Source of the DNA: Alphaproteobacteria bacterium
GTDB taxonomy: Bacteria > Pseudomonadota > Alphaproteobacteria > UBA6615
Length of the DNA: 64,000 bases
Assembly (NCBI GenBank): GCA_021774575.1
Contig: JAJFIX010000006.1
Coordinates: 124,001-188,000 of the forward strand
Direction of reading: 5' to 3'
The position numbers and the translations under genes were made by a program. The notes under the pieces were generated by a model. That model was not told the DNA's origin. It worked only from the letters and a program-made list of their open reading frames with translations, and did not search any database. This document shows, piece by piece, positions 8,424 to 23,790 of this stretch (position 1 is its first letter; every line of letters begins with the position of its first letter).

Positions 8424-9290
8424 TTAACTCATTGAGTCTGAGTTAAGTGTGAGTACGTGACGGCGCAATTCAGGTGTCACCGCCGGATCGACACCGAACC
8501 ATTGCGCGAAGGCTGGCCGCGCCTGATGCAACAACATGCCCAGCCCGTCAATTGCAATACATCCTTTGGCCCGCGCCTGGACTAACAGCTGTGTTTCCAG
8601 AGGGGTATAAACAATGTCGTTTACCACCGCGTCACCGGCCAGAGCTGACAAGTCTATTTCCAGCGGCGGCTGCCCGACCATGCCTAAACTGGTTGTATTC
8701 ACCACCAGTTTCGCACCGTCTAGGCGTTCCGTCCGGCTTGCCCAATCGGCGCAGATAATTTTTGCATGAGACGCGGTCAAGCGTGCGGCAAGAGCCTCGG
8801 CCCTGGCCCGACTGCGATTACACAAAACAATATCGGTTGCCCCCGCCTCCAATAGAGCAACACAAACGGCGCGGGCAGCTCCACCGGCTCCGAGAATTAG
8901 AATTTTCCCGGCATTAAAGGCTAGATCTGGCGCTCCATCTTTAATGTTTTCGATGAAACCGTAGGCATCGGTATTTATTCCCCTCAATCGCCCACCGGGA
9001 CCAACGATTATCGTGTTGACCGCGCCGATATGCTCCGCGGCGGAATCTACATCATCCAAGAAATTGAAACCGGCCTGTTTATGGGGAACCGTCAAATTGG
9101 CGCCACGAAACCCCATCGCCGGAAGGGCGCTCAACGCTGTTGCTAGATTCTTCGGATCAACCGGTAGCGGAATATAGGCGCCATCGATCCCATAGTATTT
9201 GAGCCAAAACCCGTGCAATTGTGGGGAGCGCGAATGGGCAACCGGCCAGCCCATGACCCCTGCGATCAGTGTTTTTCCTGTAATGTTCAT
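8424..9290 (-). CDS. aroE: Shikimate dehydrogenase
   Basis: Reduces 3-dehydroshikimate to shikimate with NADPH in aromatic amino acid synthesis. The 288 residues (from MNITGKTLIAGVMGWP) contain the substrate motif HSRSPQLHG, the catalytic lysine in NLTVPHKQ and the nucleotide-binding GAGGAARAVCVALLEAG followed by NRSRARAEAL. The open frame runs upstream to 9425, but its first 45 residues overlap maf and are not aroE-like; the ATG at 9290 overlaps the maf stop by 4 bases (ATGA), marking translational coupling. Confidence 0.95.
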   Translation of the reverse strand: MNITGKTLIAGVMGWPVAHSRSPQLHGFWLKYYGIDGAYIPLPVDPKNLATALSALPAMGFRGANLTVPHKQAGFNFLDDVDSAAEHIGAVNTIIVGPGGRLRGINTDAYGFIENIKDGAPDLAFNAGKILILGAGGAARAVCVALLEAGATDIVLCNRSRARAEALAARLTASHAKIICADWASRTERLDGAKLVVNTTSLGMVGQPPLEIDLSALAGDAVVNDIVYTPLETQLLVQARAKGCIAIDGLGMLLHQARPAFAQWFGVDPAVTPELRRHVLTLNSDSMS

Positions 9291-9889
9291 TTTCGGATGA
9301 TGTCGTTCGCCCGCAAAAAACGCAATAACGGCAGCAGAGGCAAACCAAGGGTGGTAAAATAATCGGCGGAAATTTCTGAAAAAAGCTGAACGCCCATTCC
9401 TTCCAACTGATACGACCCGGCACAAGCCAGCGTCTCGTCAGTCACAACCGCTAGATAACTATCGAGAAACCCCACACTAAAATTTCGCATGGTTAGGACC
9501 GCGACTTCAGTGTGATGCCAGAGCGATTTCTCGGCATGAACGGCGATAACACTGGTCCATAATTTGTGTGACTTTCCGCGTAGTTCCAGAAGATGGGCCT
9601 TGGCAATTGATTTGTCCTTCGGCTTATCATAGATAACACCGTCGCAGGCCAATACCTGATCCGCCCCGATTATGAGATGGCCTGGCCAAGAGGCGGATAT
9701 TTCTACTGCCTTCAATTCACCGAGTCGCTCGGCAATCGTACCTGGGCTGGCGCCATCAGCAATGAGTTCGGTTTTCACCGCACCCTCATCGATGTGGGCC
9801 GGAACAACATCGTGCAGTACACCCGCATCAAGTAGGAGCTTGGAGCGAATTGGGCTTGCTGACGCTAGAATGACCGACATTGGGGCCAT
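9287..9889 (-). CDS. maf: Maf family nucleotide pyrophosphatase
   Basis: Maf-type house-cleaning pyrophosphatase acting on non-canonical or modified nucleotides (dTTP/UTP or m7GTP type; the subtype cannot be decided here). The 200-residue frame shows the family signatures ILASASPIRSKLL near the N-terminus, AHIDEGAVK, IIGADQVLACDG and ELRGKSHKLWTSV. The start could be the second Met (residue 4). It sits between aroE (4-base overlap) and the PPSR gene (one-base overlap, TAATG). Confidence 0.93.
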   Translation of the reverse strand: MAPMSVILASASPIRSKLLLDAGVLHDVVPAHIDEGAVKTELIADGASPGTIAERLGELKAVEISASWPGHLIIGADQVLACDGVIYDKPKDKSIAKAHLLELRGKSHKLWTSVIAVHAEKSLWHHTEVAVLTMRNFSVGFLDSYLAVVTDETLACAGSYQLEGMGVQLFSEISADYFTTLGLPLLPLLRFLRANDIIRK

Positions 9890-10719
9890 TATTCGCCCTC
9901 GTTCGCTGCTGCTTCATTCAAAATTTGCAGGATCGCCGAAGCGGTCTCTTCTATTGATCGATGGGAGACGTCGATAATCGGCCATTTCATTTTTAGATAA
10001 AGTTTGCGTGCAGCAATTGTCTCCGCCTTCACCTGCTCCGGGTCGACATACGCCGTCGGCTCTTCTTGGCTCAACGACATTAAGCGCGATCGGCGTATTT
10101 CCACCAATCGTTTGGGATTATTTGTCAGCGCTATGATGCGAGGGGCGGACGGGCCTTTAATTGCAAATACTTGGCTAGGTAGCGTGATATCAGGCACATA
10201 AGGAATGTTTGCAGCCTTAACTCCACGATTTCCAAGATATAGGCATGTTGGAGTTTTTGAGGTCCGCGAAACGCCAACAAGGACCACATCTGCCGATCCG
10301 AGCCCATCAAGGCCCTGACCGTCATCATGGGCGAGCACCCAATCCATTGCTTCGATGCGTCTGAAATAATCCGCATCCATGGCGTGCTGGCGGCCAGGTC
10401 GATGACCCGGCTGTTCATCCAAATATGAGCCAAGAGCCTGCATTATCGGGTCCAAAACAGAAACGCATGGCGTTCCGAGTTTTCGACAGCCACTGAGCAA
10501 TTGGTCGCGTAGATCATTGTCCACGAGAGTAAAGACGACAAGTCCCGGATTGGATTTTATATCCTCCAAAACCTGTTCCATCGCCCGCGATGTTCGTGCC
10601 ATCGGCCAGAGATGTTCAATGATTTGACCAACCTCGAACTGTGCCAAACAAGCACGCGTCACCGAGTGAATTGTCTCGCCGGTCGAATCAGATACAAGAT
10701 GTAGATGTCCTTGGCGCAC
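9889..10719 (-). CDS. Pyruvate phosphate dikinase regulatory protein (PPSR, DUF299)
   Basis: Bifunctional ADP-dependent kinase/Pi-dependent pyrophosphorylase of the PPSR family, which controls pyruvate phosphate dikinase or PEP synthase. The 276 residues begin with HLHLVSDSTGETIHSVTRA and contain the P-loop-like GVSRTSKTPTCLYLGNRG and the C-terminal WPIIDVSHRSIEETA motif, all characteristic. The start is GTG with GGTGAG just upstream. This is the RP001-type gene known to flank the replication origin in Caulobacter and Rickettsia, and it faces hemE across the AT-rich gap here. It is probably the first gene of the run through to dnaQ. Confidence 0.94.
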   Translation of the reverse strand: MRQGHLHLVSDSTGETIHSVTRACLAQFEVGQIIEHLWPMARTSRAMEQVLEDIKSNPGLVVFTLVDNDLRDQLLSGCRKLGTPCVSVLDPIMQALGSYLDEQPGHRPGRQHAMDADYFRRIEAMDWVLAHDDGQGLDGLGSADVVLVGVSRTSKTPTCLYLGNRGVKAANIPYVPDITLPSQVFAIKGPSAPRIIALTNNPKRLVEIRRSRLMSLSQEEPTAYVDPEQVKAETIAARKLYLKMKWPIIDVSHRSIEETASAILQILNEAAANEGE

Positions 10720-10946
10720 GTCTCACCCCACAAAAATTTTCACATTCATATTTTGACGAGCCTATTTATGCCCTATTGCCAGGTATTATTTTTGAATTCG
10801 ATGGATAACTGACGAATTTGTATAGGACTGCATTTTTCTTTAAACCCAATTGGATTTTCAATCCCGTCCTTCTGCTCCTGTTACTAAATATAATCACCGA
10901 TGAGGACGAAGGGTTTTTTCGGTACTTATGACCGATTAAATTTACT

Positions 10947-10955
10947 GGTGAATAA
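10947..10955 (-). promoter_or_regulatory. DnaA-box-like 9-mer
   Basis: The minus strand reads TTATTCACC, one mismatch from TTATNCACA. It lies in the PPSR-hemE gap; a single word like this could occur by chance in AT-rich DNA. Confidence 0.45.
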
Positions 10956-11023
10956 ATTACCACACACCACATCGCCCTTTATTACTGGTAATTAGAGATA
11001 TTTTATCCCAATACAGGCAGTGA

Positions 11024-11032
11024 TTATCCCCA
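11024..11032 (+). promoter_or_regulatory. DnaA-box-like 9-mer
   Basis: TTATCCCCA differs from TTATCCACA at one position. It is 9 bases before the next DnaA-like word and 12 bases after a weaker one (TTATCCCAA, 11003-11011), so the three form a same-strand cluster. Confidence 0.5.
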
Positions 11033-11041
11033 GATAATAAT

Positions 11042-11050
11042 ATATCCACA
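11042..11050 (+). promoter_or_regulatory. DnaA-box-like 9-mer
   Basis: ATATCCACA matches the consensus TTATCCACA except for the first base. It is the best candidate DnaA box in the gap and shares orientation with its neighbour at 11024-11032. Confidence 0.55.
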
Positions 11051-11108
11051 CCGGGATCTTTATAAAATTTAATCCCCGATTCACCGCCGACCAACCACTA
11101 CTACTATC

Positions 11109-11126
11109 TAAGATTTTAAAATCTTA
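11109..11126. repeat. 18-bp perfect palindrome in the putative origin
   Basis: taagattttaaaatctta is a perfect inverted repeat with no spacer, all A/T except for two G-C pairs. It lies 92 bases before the hemE start. It could be an operator for hemE, part of the unwinding region, or a binding site for an origin regulator; the sequence alone does not decide. Confidence 0.85.
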
Positions 11127-11218
11127 TTTGAATTAGATGGCTTGGAATTCACTGCAAAATCGGTGATTTTATCGAGCAGTTCACACGTTCAGTCGCCAAA
11201 GGATTTGGTATCGAAAAT

Positions 11219-12268
11219 ATGACCACAGAAAAAATTATCCTGCGATCACTCCTGGGTCACGAAGTTGAGCGGCCGCCTTTTTGGTTCATGCGTCAGGCCG
11301 GAAGATTTTTGCCCGAATACCGGAAAATACGAGCGTCCGTCCGTGGATTTCTTGATTTGTGTTACAACTCAGAATTGGCCGAGGAAGTAACGCTTCAACC
11401 CGTGCAGCGATTTGATACCGATGCAGCAATCTTATTTGCGGATATACTTTTGGTTCCACACGCCTTGGGACAGGATTTGGCGTTTTTGGAGGGTGAGGGA
11501 CCGGTTTTAGATCCGATTCGAAATATTAGTGGGTTAGATGCGTTACGACCGGAAGGTCTTTTAGAAAAACTATCGCCAATTTTTTCCACGGTCGAGCGGC
11601 TTGCAAGATCGTTAGCTCCAGAAAAAGCGCTAATTGGATTTGCGGGTGCACCATGGACTGTTGCGACTTACATGGTTGAAGGTCGAGCGAGCCGAGATTA
11701 TCCGAATATTAAAAATTGGGCATACGGTGATCCGGCGGGATTTGGCAAGCTCGTCAGTTTGCTTGAGGACGCGACAGCGCAATATCTGATTTTTCAGGCA
11801 AATGCTGGTGCCGACGCATTACAATTATTTGATACCTGGGCAGGTGTTTTACCTGCGGATATGCAGGAACGCTGGGTCGTTCAACCGACGAAAAGGATAG
11901 TTGATAGCGTTAGAAAAGTTCATCCAAATATTCCAATCATTGGATTTCCGAAGGGAATCGGACCTGGACTAATACGCTACGCGAATATTACCGGTGTTTC
12001 GGCGGTTGGATTGGATACCAGCATGGATCCCGCTTGGGCAGCCAAATATATTCAACCAATTTGCGGTATACAGGGCAATCTTGATCCGGGACTTTTGTCT
12101 GCTGGTGGAGATACTATGCTGGCGTCGGCAAATGAAATTATTGATGACCTTAAATCTGGTCCGCATATATTTAATTTAGGTCATGGAATATGGCCAACAA
12201 CGGATCCTAATCATTTGGCTGATCTCGTAGCTATGATCCGAAATTATCGATATTCGCGGCTGGATTAG
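11219..12268 (+). CDS. hemE: Uroporphyrinogen decarboxylase
   Basis: Removes four carboxyl groups from uroporphyrinogen III to give coproporphyrinogen III in haem synthesis. The 349 residues carry the two family signatures, WFMRQAGRFLPEYR near the N-terminus and GFAGAPWTVATYMVEG in the middle. Length is normal. The gene is notably AT-rich: sampled 60-base lines give about 38% G+C against 55-62% in argG and gcv genes. It is adjacent to the putative oriC and followed directly by hemH. Confidence 0.96.
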   Translation: MTTEKIILRSLLGHEVERPPFWFMRQAGRFLPEYRKIRASVRGFLDLCYNSELAEEVTLQPVQRFDTDAAILFADILLVPHALGQDLAFLEGEGPVLDPIRNISGLDALRPEGLLEKLSPIFSTVERLARSLAPEKALIGFAGAPWTVATYMVEGRASRDYPNIKNWAYGDPAGFGKLVSLLEDATAQYLIFQANAGADALQLFDTWAGVLPADMQERWVVQPTKRIVDSVRKVHPNIPIIGFPKGIGPGLIRYANITGVSAVGLDTSMDPAWAAKYIQPICGIQGNLDPGLLSAGGDTMLASANEIIDDLKSGPHIFNLGHGIWPTTDPNHLADLVAMIRNYRYSRLD

Positions 12269-21320: not shown

Positions 21321-21336
21321 TGTTTCACGTGAAACA
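21321..21336. promoter_or_regulatory. parS: parS centromere site 1
   Basis: tgtttcacgtgaaaca is a perfect 16-bp match to the universal ParB-binding parS palindrome. It lies in the short mnmG-rsmG gap, near its own parAB genes and about 10 kb from the putative oriC. Confidence 0.95.
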
Positions 21337-21347
21337 TTGACCGTTAT

Positions 21348-22013
21348 ATGACCCCGGAAGAGTTTCGCCGCACGGCGAATGTTTCACGTGAAACAATTAT
21401 CGCGCTGGAGCGCTACCACGAGCTCATTTTGCGATGGCAGAGCAAGATGAACTTAATTGCCGAATCAACAAAGGGCGATATATGGGGGCGTCACTTCAGC
21501 GATTCCGCACAATTGGCCAAATATGCTTTGCAGGACCCGCCGAACCTACGGGGGACAAATTCGGATGCTGCACCAGGCAAAAAAATATACATGGACTTAG
21601 GTTCTGGGGCTGGCTTTCCTGGGCTGATATTGGCATTATTAGGTGCAAGACCGCTACATCTTGTGGAAGCAAATGGCCGTAAGGCTACATTTTTAGCCGA
21701 GGCGGCGCGATATATGGGTCTGGATTCTAACGATTATGTTGTCCATCCAGTTAGGGTTGATGCGTTAGACCAAGAGTTTGCGGGCCGTGCAGCAGTTGTA
21801 ACTGCGCGGGCCCTGGCAAATCTCAACCAGTTACTTGGTATGGCCGCTCCGTTGCTGGCTCCCGAAGGAATTTGCGTGTTTCCAAAGGGGCGCGCATGGC
21901 GCCAAGAATTGGCGGCGGCACAACAGAATTGGACCATGTTGATAGAGACCTTTGACAGCGAATCAGATCGGGAAGCCGCAATACTTCGCATTTCGGATCT
22001 GCACAGGAAATAA
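21348..22013 (+). CDS. rsmG: 16S rRNA (guanine527-N7)-methyltransferase RsmG
   Basis: Methylates G527 (E. coli numbering) of 16S rRNA using SAM. The 221 residues contain the family motif LRWQSKMNLIAEST, the SAM-binding DLGSGAGFPGLILA and the later VTARALANLNQLLGMAAPLL. A parS site lies inside the N-terminal coding region and gives residues NVSRETI, the classical arrangement in gidB genes near origins. It ends 5 bases before parA. Confidence 0.95.
   Translation: MTPEEFRRTANVSRETIIALERYHELILRWQSKMNLIAESTKGDIWGRHFSDSAQLAKYALQDPPNLRGTNSDAAPGKKIYMDLGSGAGFPGLILALLGARPLHLVEANGRKATFLAEAARYMGLDSNDYVVHPVRVDALDQEFAGRAAVVTARALANLNQLLGMAAPLLAPEGICVFPKGRAWRQELAAAQQNWTMLIETFDSESDREAAILRISDLHRK
21380..21395. 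promoter_or_regulatory. parS: parS centromere site 2, inside rsmG
   Basis: A second perfect parS palindrome (identical 16 bases) is embedded in the rsmG reading frame, 59 bases downstream of site 1. ParB nucleates at such sites and spreads. No third perfect copy was noticed in the window. Confidence 0.95.
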
Positions 22014-22018
22014 AACCA

Positions 22019-22888
22019 ATGAGTCCCAACGATCAAATGAATGAGTCAAGATCAAAGACAGGCCGAGGACGCATAATAGCCGTGGCAAACCAAAAGGGCG
22101 GAGTTGGTAAAACGACGACCGTTATTAATTTGGCTACGGCATTGGCAGCATGTGGGGCTACCGTACTGGTTGTTGACCTAGACCCCCAGGGGAATGCGAC
22201 AACAGGTTTTGGTTTGCCCGACGAAGCCAGAGCCAGCGGGAGTTACCAACTTTTGACCGGTTCGAAAGTCGAGCCGTGCGAGACAATTGTGCCGGGCTTG
22301 AAATTCATCCCGACTTCGGTCGACCTAGTTGGTGCTGAACTAGAGCTGGTCTCCGAAGGTCAACGTGAATACAAGCTAAAGGCCGCTCTCGAGCCCTTTC
22401 TTGTAAGATTCGACTATATATTTATCGACTGCCCACCTGCATTGGGTTTGCTCACGTTAAATGCACTAACGGCAGCGGACACGGTGATGGTGCCAATGCA
22501 GTGTGAGTTTTTTGCCCTCGAAGGGCTAAGTCATTTACTGCAAACAATTGAACGCGTTCGAGCCCATTCAAATCCCGATCTAGAAATTGAAGGCTTTGTC
22601 TTGACCATGTATGACCGCCGTAACAATTTGTGTCGGTCCGTCGAAAGCGACGTAAGGGCTCATTTTGGCGCTAAAGTTTACACCAGCGTTATACCGCGAA
22701 ATGTGAGGGTTTCGGAGGCCCCATCATTTGGTAAACCGGTCCTTCTGTACGATATAGGTTGCGCCGGTGCGCAGGCATATATCCGCCTAGCCAGCGAAAT
22801 AATGGACCTAGACAGTGTGCCGCCGCCAGTCAGTCATGGAGGCGCGACGCCAAGACAATTTTCCAGAGCAAGTGAGGCCGCAGAATGA
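22019..22888 (+). CDS. parA: Chromosome-partitioning ATPase ParA
   Basis: Walker-type ATPase that drives segregation of the ParB-parS complex. The 289 residues include the deviant Walker A QKGGVGKTT, the switch DLDPQGNATTG, Walker B FDYIFIDCPPALGLLTLNAL and the typical ARMR-like tail region NVRVSEAPSFGKP. The first 15 residues are variable, so the start may be one of two closely spaced ATGs. It overlaps parB by 4 bases. Confidence 0.96.
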   Translation: MSPNDQMNESRSKTGRGRIIAVANQKGGVGKTTTVINLATALAACGATVLVVDLDPQGNATTGFGLPDEARASGSYQLLTGSKVEPCETIVPGLKFIPTSVDLVGAELELVSEGQREYKLKAALEPFLVRFDYIFIDCPPALGLLTLNALTAADTVMVPMQCEFFALEGLSHLLQTIERVRAHSNPDLEIEGFVLTMYDRRNNLCRSVESDVRAHFGAKVYTSVIPRNVRVSEAPSFGKPVLLYDIGCAGAQAYIRLASEIMDLDSVPPPVSHGGATPRQFSRASEAAE

Positions 22889-23790
22889 GTGACGAAAGCC
22901 CAAGCCGTCTGGGGCGCGGCCTCTCCGCGCTATTACCAGGAGCGGCTGGCCAATCGACACCAAATACCGTCAGTGTCGGGACCCCCGCACCCAGCGAAGT
23001 TCGGCAGTTCGCCATATCCGATATCGAACCGAGTTCGTTGCAGCCGAGGCGCATTTTTGACGATCAGGAAATGGAATCACTGATCCGGTCAGTGGCTGAG
23101 AAGGGTGTTTTGCAGCCCATCCTCATCCGGCCGATCGATGGCGGACGTAGTAGATACGAGCTAGTTGCTGGTGAGCGCCGCTGGCGCGCAGCACAGGCAG
23201 CGCAATTGCATGAAATACCGGCCGTGGTCCGGGATCTGGATGATCAGGAAGCGCTGGAAATTGCGCTGGTCGAAAATTTGCAGCGTGACGCTTTGACCCC
23301 GCTGGAAGAAGCGCAAGGCTACCAGAGGCTCATCGACCAATTTAATCATACACAGGAAGATGTGGCGGTTGCCGTCGGAAAAAGCCGCAGCCATGTCGCT
23401 AATACCGTGCGTTTATTAGGCCTACCGAGTTCGATCAAAGCTGCCCTGGATGATGGCGACCTGACTGCGGGGCATGCGCGGGCGCTAATGGCTGCCGCTG
23501 AACCAGAAGGACTGGCAAAAACGGTAATTAAGAAGGGCCTGAATGTTCGCCAGACCGAACGATTGGTTAAAGCCGAATCTCATTCGGATTTGGGTCAGAC
23601 AAAGGGAGGCGCCCAACCGGCAGGATCCAAAAGCGCAGACATACTCGCTCTGGAGCGACGTTTATCGGATTCCCTTGGCGTGCCAGTAGATATCTCATTC
23701 GATGGAAAGGGCGGTAAACTCATGATTGATTATCGCACATTAGACAAATTAGACGATATTATTCAAAGGCTTACAGCAGAAGAAAATTAG
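22885..23790 (+). CDS. parB: Chromosome-partitioning protein ParB
   Basis: ParB is a CTP-dependent DNA clamp that loads at parS. The 301 residues start with the ParA-interacting SRLGRGLSALL motif, followed by the CTP-binding domain with LQPRRIFDD, ELVAGERRWRAAQ (GERRxR box) and IALVENLQRDALTPLEEAQGY, then the helix-turn-helix VAVAVGKSRSHVANTVRLLGLP and a C-terminal dimerisation region. The two parS sites upstream in rsmG complete the ParABS set. Confidence 0.96.
   Translation: MSDESPSRLGRGLSALLPGAAGQSTPNTVSVGTPAPSEVRQFAISDIEPSSLQPRRIFDDQEMESLIRSVAEKGVLQPILIRPIDGGRSRYELVAGERRWRAAQAAQLHEIPAVVRDLDDQEALEIALVENLQRDALTPLEEAQGYQRLIDQFNHTQEDVAVAVGKSRSHVANTVRLLGLPSSIKAALDDGDLTAGHARALMAAAEPEGLAKTVIKKGLNVRQTERLVKAESHSDLGQTKGGAQPAGSKSADILALERRLSDSLGVPVDISFDGKGGKLMIDYRTLDKLDDIIQRLTAEEN

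Follow-up and report, generated by a model that had tools for sequence, protein, structure and literature searches.

At what point on this alphaproteobacterial chromosome does replication begin, and how might the DNA be opened there? The mapped origin of Caulobacter and the origin of Rickettsia occupy the slot between hemE and the PPSR gene (COG1806/RP001) (PMC1914354), and the same slot is present in the DNA considered here. The window is the whole stretch analyzed, 64 kb in length, corresponding to bases 124,001-188,000 of contig C42 (488,100 bp) in a genome of 3.50 Mb assembled in 46 contigs. Positions are given in window coordinates unless a contig is named.

Probable location of the chromosomal origin

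The left flank of the slot is the PPSR gene, which encodes a kinase/pyrophosphorylase homologous to COG1806/RP001 (9889-10719, minus strand; PF03618, 291 bits), and the right flank is hemE, encoding uroporphyrinogen decarboxylase (11219-12268, plus strand; PF01208, 357 bits). The gap between them is 499 bp long, exactly 10720-11218, and the two genes are neighbors in nearly all relatives in our synteny comparison. An earlier note on this DNA had proposed the gap as a putative origin, describing it as AT-rich and about 10 kb from two parS sites. Both flanking genes are now confirmed by Pfam, and the gap has a GC content of 36.7%, compared with about 53-55% across most of the window. When nearest-neighbor energy is calculated over the whole contig, the least stable 499-bp stretch coincides with the gap to within 20 bp. 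Two perfect parS sites are indeed found 10 kb to the right, at 21321-21336 and at 21380-21395, the second within the 5' end of the gidB reading frame, and these are the only sites genome-wide with at most two mismatches. They are followed by parA (22019-22888, plus strand; PF13614, 196 bits) and parB (22885-23790, plus strand; ParB N-terminal, HTH and C-terminal Pfam domains), while dnaA lies 28 kb to the left of the gap. No Rfam features were found in the gap.

Raw cumulative GC skew falls to almost the same minimum at two places on the contig, one near the gap and the other 29 kb away at C42:105,349, just upstream of dnaA. Because of this near tie we used a fit in which third-position skew (GC3) is regressed on gene orientation plus a break point. 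The corrected break falls at C42:134,500 (window 10,500), with a 2-lnL range of C42:132,500-135,500 (window 8,500-11,500) and a gain of 54 lnL over no break, and the keto-skew minimum is at window 11252. Placing the break at parS costs about 22 lnL. On the strength of the skew break, the duplex instability (the gap is the contig's least stable 500 bp) and the conserved synteny, it is very probable that the gap at 10720-11218 is the chromosomal oriC. As an origin it is unremarkable and belongs to a known kind.

Replication might instead start at dnaA, with the PPSR-hemE gap being a mere divergent promoter region. The raw skew is lowest just upstream of dnaA and three DnaA-like words are found nearby, but once gene orientation is corrected for, a break at dnaA loses 5.8 lnL with GC3 alone and 9.7 lnL when TA skew is added. 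The gap is also favored by keto skew, by duplex stability and by the conserved module discussed below. Comparison with a contig of a relative (G004) also argues against dnaA, since the skew switch and the PPSR-hemE gap there are no more than about 9 kb apart. That switch is clean: the cumulative skew is lowest at 379,178 and the 2-lnL range spans 373,500-382,500. The gap, near 372,300-372,800, is about 1-9 kb from the switch and 2.9 lnL below the best fit. In a closed genome of the same class (G032), the change from negative to positive skew falls in the interval 3.54-3.65 Mb, which includes PPSR-hemE (3.605 Mb). We consider an origin at dnaA very unlikely.

Still less plausible is a working origin at a cluster of five perfect and several near-perfect DnaA boxes that are packed into 145 bp (C41:98,033-98,175), with ilvD on one side and an autotransporter-like gene on the other. 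The skew there is positive on both sides over tens of kilobases, so that no replication start is recorded, and none of 23 family members has a comparable triple of perfect boxes. This dense cluster (G000:C41:98033-98175; L093:18033-18175) holds about nine DnaA boxes in all, five of them perfect, and may be a DnaA titration or datA-like site, which fits better than an origin. A second intergenic set, of five perfect DnaA boxes over 700 bp and all on one strand, is found at G000:C45:188348-189057 (L099:18348-19057). Both perfect-box clusters were rejected as the origin, the skew being unchanged at each.

The stretches sampled from the other contigs mostly have one skew sign. Within the sampled stretches, contig C25 probably holds the terminus, because its skew turns from positive to negative. 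The start of contig C31 (C31:1-20000; L112) has weak negative skew and then positive skew, which remains a caveat for the origin call; it is possibly the result of an island, an inversion or an assembly effect.

DnaA boxes and conservation in the family

The DnaA-box-like words of the gap are spread over both strands. A plus-strand group consists of TTATCCCAA (11003-11011), TTATCCCCA (11024-11032, one mismatch) and ATATCCACA (11042-11050, one mismatch), and a weak word, TTATTCACC, is on the minus strand at 10947-10955; the earlier note had listed words at these places, and the word scan finds them there. It had also reported no exact TTATCCACA, which holds for the entire 64-kb window. It had overlooked TTATCCATC near PPSR (10800-10808, minus strand), at a place where nearly all family members have a reverse box, as well as the module at 11070-11150 described in the next section. 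Against dinucleotide shuffles, the gap's two words with at most one mismatch give P of about 0.027, and its five words with at most two mismatches give P of about 0.05-0.09. The words in this single gap are real but weak, marginally above chance, and alone they prove little. We rejected them as stand-alone proof of an origin, as they are marginal against the shuffles, and the case for the origin rests on comparison.

The interval is 384-513 bp long in 20 relatives of the same family, and almost every family member has a minus-strand DnaA-like box at a distance of about 50-80 bp from PPSR. Pooling the gaps, one for each genus, gives a strong excess: there are 13 boxes with at most one mismatch, where 1.1 are expected, and none of 300 shuffle sets reaches 13. 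The most conserved block of the family alignment is on the hemE side, consisting of TTATCCC.., ATTCACCG and CTACAACTAC followed by AT-rich DNA. A profile of this block, built without the window, has its top match among the contig and the sampled loci at C42:135070-135139, and because the score is just 7.9 bits (E 5.4), the match supports position only. The two comparisons that the earlier note had suggested for its origin proposal, GC skew and alignment with relatives, both bear it out: the gene-corrected break falls at the gap, even with the raw minimum near-tied with the dnaA region, and the family members retain the interval, with their DnaA boxes in constant positions.

The earlier note had further suggested that the origin may use a divergent box set. 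This is only half right: domain IV of this genome's DnaA carries the canonical GGRDHTTV signature, and for this reason a set of weak boxes of the Caulobacter kind is a likelier explanation than an altered DnaA specificity. The Caulobacter G-box word TGATCCACA, which is TTATCCACA with a T-to-G change, is absent from the gap, although it is found in several family members. What the gap does share with the Caulobacter G- and W-boxes is a set of low-affinity DnaA sites with no perfect consensus box (PMC4468827).

More broadly, the gap resembles Caulobacter Cori and the Rickettsia prowazekii oriC in its flanking genes, weak boxes, AT-rich DNA and parS sites about 10 kb away (PMC1914354, PMC4468827). 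It differs from the Caulobacter type in its lack of a CtrA site or an IHF consensus match; no TTAA-N7-TTAA was found in the gap, even in a loose form. Genes for both CtrA (417 bits, which exceeds the cut-off) and GcrA are present, and no match to the SciP family (PF06627) was found. Direct CtrA repression of the Caulobacter kind is not supported at the gap, because of the missing CtrA consensus site. A putative methylation input is possible through the gap's only GANTC, a CcrM-type site (11078-11082), which overlaps a weak box of the module.

A candidate unwinding module

The module, at 11070-11150, is on the hemE side of the words described above. The family alignment places a first box, TAATCCCCG, at 11070-11078 on the plus strand (TTATCCCTC and similar in relatives), and a second, weak box, CGATTCACC, at 11077-11085 on the same strand; it is this second box that overlaps the GANTC, and GATTC or GACTC recurs at that position in many family members. 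Next is a plus-strand (CNA)5 tract, CAACCACTACTACTA, at 11092-11106, a class of repeat enriched across the Alphaproteobacteria (see below). Read on the minus strand, the tract consists of DnaA-trio-like 3'-GNT-5' repeats, of which the last three are GAT. On either strand of the 488-kb contig there is just one other CNA run of at least five repeats, inside hemH. The AT-rich stretch that follows (11107-11150) is, from its instability, the likely duplex unwinding element; the 60-bp segment starting at 11099 ranks within the contig's 15 least stable. The CNA tract is immediately followed by a perfect 18-bp palindrome, TAAGATTTTAAAATCTTA (11109-11126), one of eight such palindromes in the 488 kb; it is not conserved in the family alignment.

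This arrangement suggests how the origin might open. DnaA would bind the low-affinity boxes scattered through the gap. An oligomer of DnaA could extend from the tandem weak boxes (11070-11085) in the direction of hemE and engage the minus strand of the (CNA)5 tract, which would act as a DnaA-trio-like element. The AT-rich DNA at 11107-11150 would then melt, and the helicase would be loaded there. By analogy with the basal unwinding system (BUS) of Bacillus (PMC8287927, PMC10721633), we think that a trio-like unwinding mechanism at the (CNA)5 tract is probable, with less assurance than we assign to the location of the origin.

The module resembles the BUS of Bacillus subtilis and others, a combination of DnaA-boxes and DnaA-trios, which likewise has tandem co-oriented boxes, a short spacer, trinucleotide repeats and AT-rich DNA; the three repeats of the window tract beside the AT-rich side are also GAT. 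The published limits for a BUS are a co-oriented box, with at most two mismatches if single, and a spacer of at most 16 bp. Here TAATCCCCG has three mismatches and is 19 bp from CTACTACTA, and the nearer CGATTCACC is weaker still, so that the boxes of the window are weaker than the published search allows. As for the requirement of at least three 3'-NAN-5' trios, CTACTACTA at 11098-11106 supplies three 3'-GAT-5'. Two further differences concern the trio itself and its reader: the middle base is free in the alphaproteobacterial repeats, whereas the published rule fixes a middle A (PMC8287927, PMC6727663), and Asn187 is replaced by tyrosine. A BUS-like architecture is present, yet it is outside the published limits.

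Trinucleotide repeats and DnaA residue 187

The CNA form was first noticed in alignments and then re-tested in an enlarged sample against all two-position masks. The class-wide test covered 64 families, with one gap each, and compared all one- and two-position trinucleotide masks with dinucleotide shuffles. Among the two-position masks, CNA (equivalently ACN or NAC) shows the highest enrichment by a wide margin, with z of about 22-24, the next mask reaching 7.4, while the published trio form, NTN on the hemE strand, has no enrichment (z 1.1). Runs of at least four CNA repeats are found in 14-16 of the 64 gaps on the hemE strand and in none on the opposite strand. On the trio strand, the outer G and T are fixed and the middle base in runs of at least three is T 47 times, A 42 times, G 35 times and C three times. 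About half of the families have no CNA run of at least three.

For runs of at least four, the 30 nt after the run average 79% A+T, compared with 55% for the gap and 54% before the run, and these 30 nt are more AT-rich than the gap in 23 of 23 gaps (a count that is not one per family). ATCC[AC]C or ATCCCT is found within 40 nt upstream of 18 of 29 CNA runs, compared with 17% of background windows.

Even with the gap taken as oriC, the CNA tract could be a leader or promoter element of hemE, or a site for primase or some other protein. In favor of this, the tract shares the strand of hemE and in most cases precedes that gene by 30-280 bp. Against it, in the seven genomes that have usable upstream sequence and in which hemE is apart from PPSR, the 700 bp upstream of hemE hold no run of at least three and no near-consensus box. 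This absence indicates that the tract is a feature of the origin interval rather than of hemE. The tract's position after DnaA-box-like words and before an AT-rich stretch also points away from a hemE element, a reading that we consider unlikely. PPSR and hemE do not adjoin in nine alphaproteobacterial loci (L223, L228, L231, L239, L240, L241, L021, L069 and L070), and no origin-like CNA run was seen in these upstream of PPSR, or of hemE where it was read; L231 has one CNA run 1.1 kb from PPSR, which looks coding. Since no origin-like CNA run was seen, genomes with hemE apart from PPSR may have their origins elsewhere.

Returning to the CNA tract as a trio-like element of the origin, we considered how DnaA might read a repeat with a free middle base. 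In the B. subtilis DnaA structure, Asn187 contacts the middle adenine of the trio, and Arg202 and Glu228 contact the guanine (PMC10721633). When the DnaA of this genome is aligned to 8btg, positions 187, 202 and 228 are occupied by Tyr, Lys and Glu, respectively. Position 187 is Tyr in 27 of 29 alphaproteobacterial DnaAs, the other two having Phe and His. A guanine pocket that is kept and an adenine contact that is changed would fit, as judged from these alignments, a trio with a fixed G and a free middle base. According to a review, the end bases of the trio may vary and the middle base must be A (PMC6727663); the alphaproteobacterial pattern is the reverse of this rule, with the outer bases fixed and the middle free. 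The Alphaproteobacteria may thus read the trio as 3'-GNT-5' instead of the published 3'-NAN-5', possibly via the Tyr in place of Asn187. We lean slightly toward a class-specific 3'-GNT-5' trio with a free middle base, matched by a co-evolved Asn187-to-Tyr change in DnaA, bearing in mind that the tyrosine link is one class-level correlation and not a set of independent events.

The trio variant appears to be new. Our literature search, with most subscription journals outside its scope, found no description of trios at alphaproteobacterial origins, and BUS activity has been tested in six homologues, none of them alphaproteobacterial (PMC8287927). The authors of the trio rule suspected that deviant trios with no middle adenine might exist (PMC8287927). 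If the reading proposed here is true, the GNT repeat together with the lost adenine-reading residue would be a case of such trios and would give a reason why searches for trios can overlook these origins.
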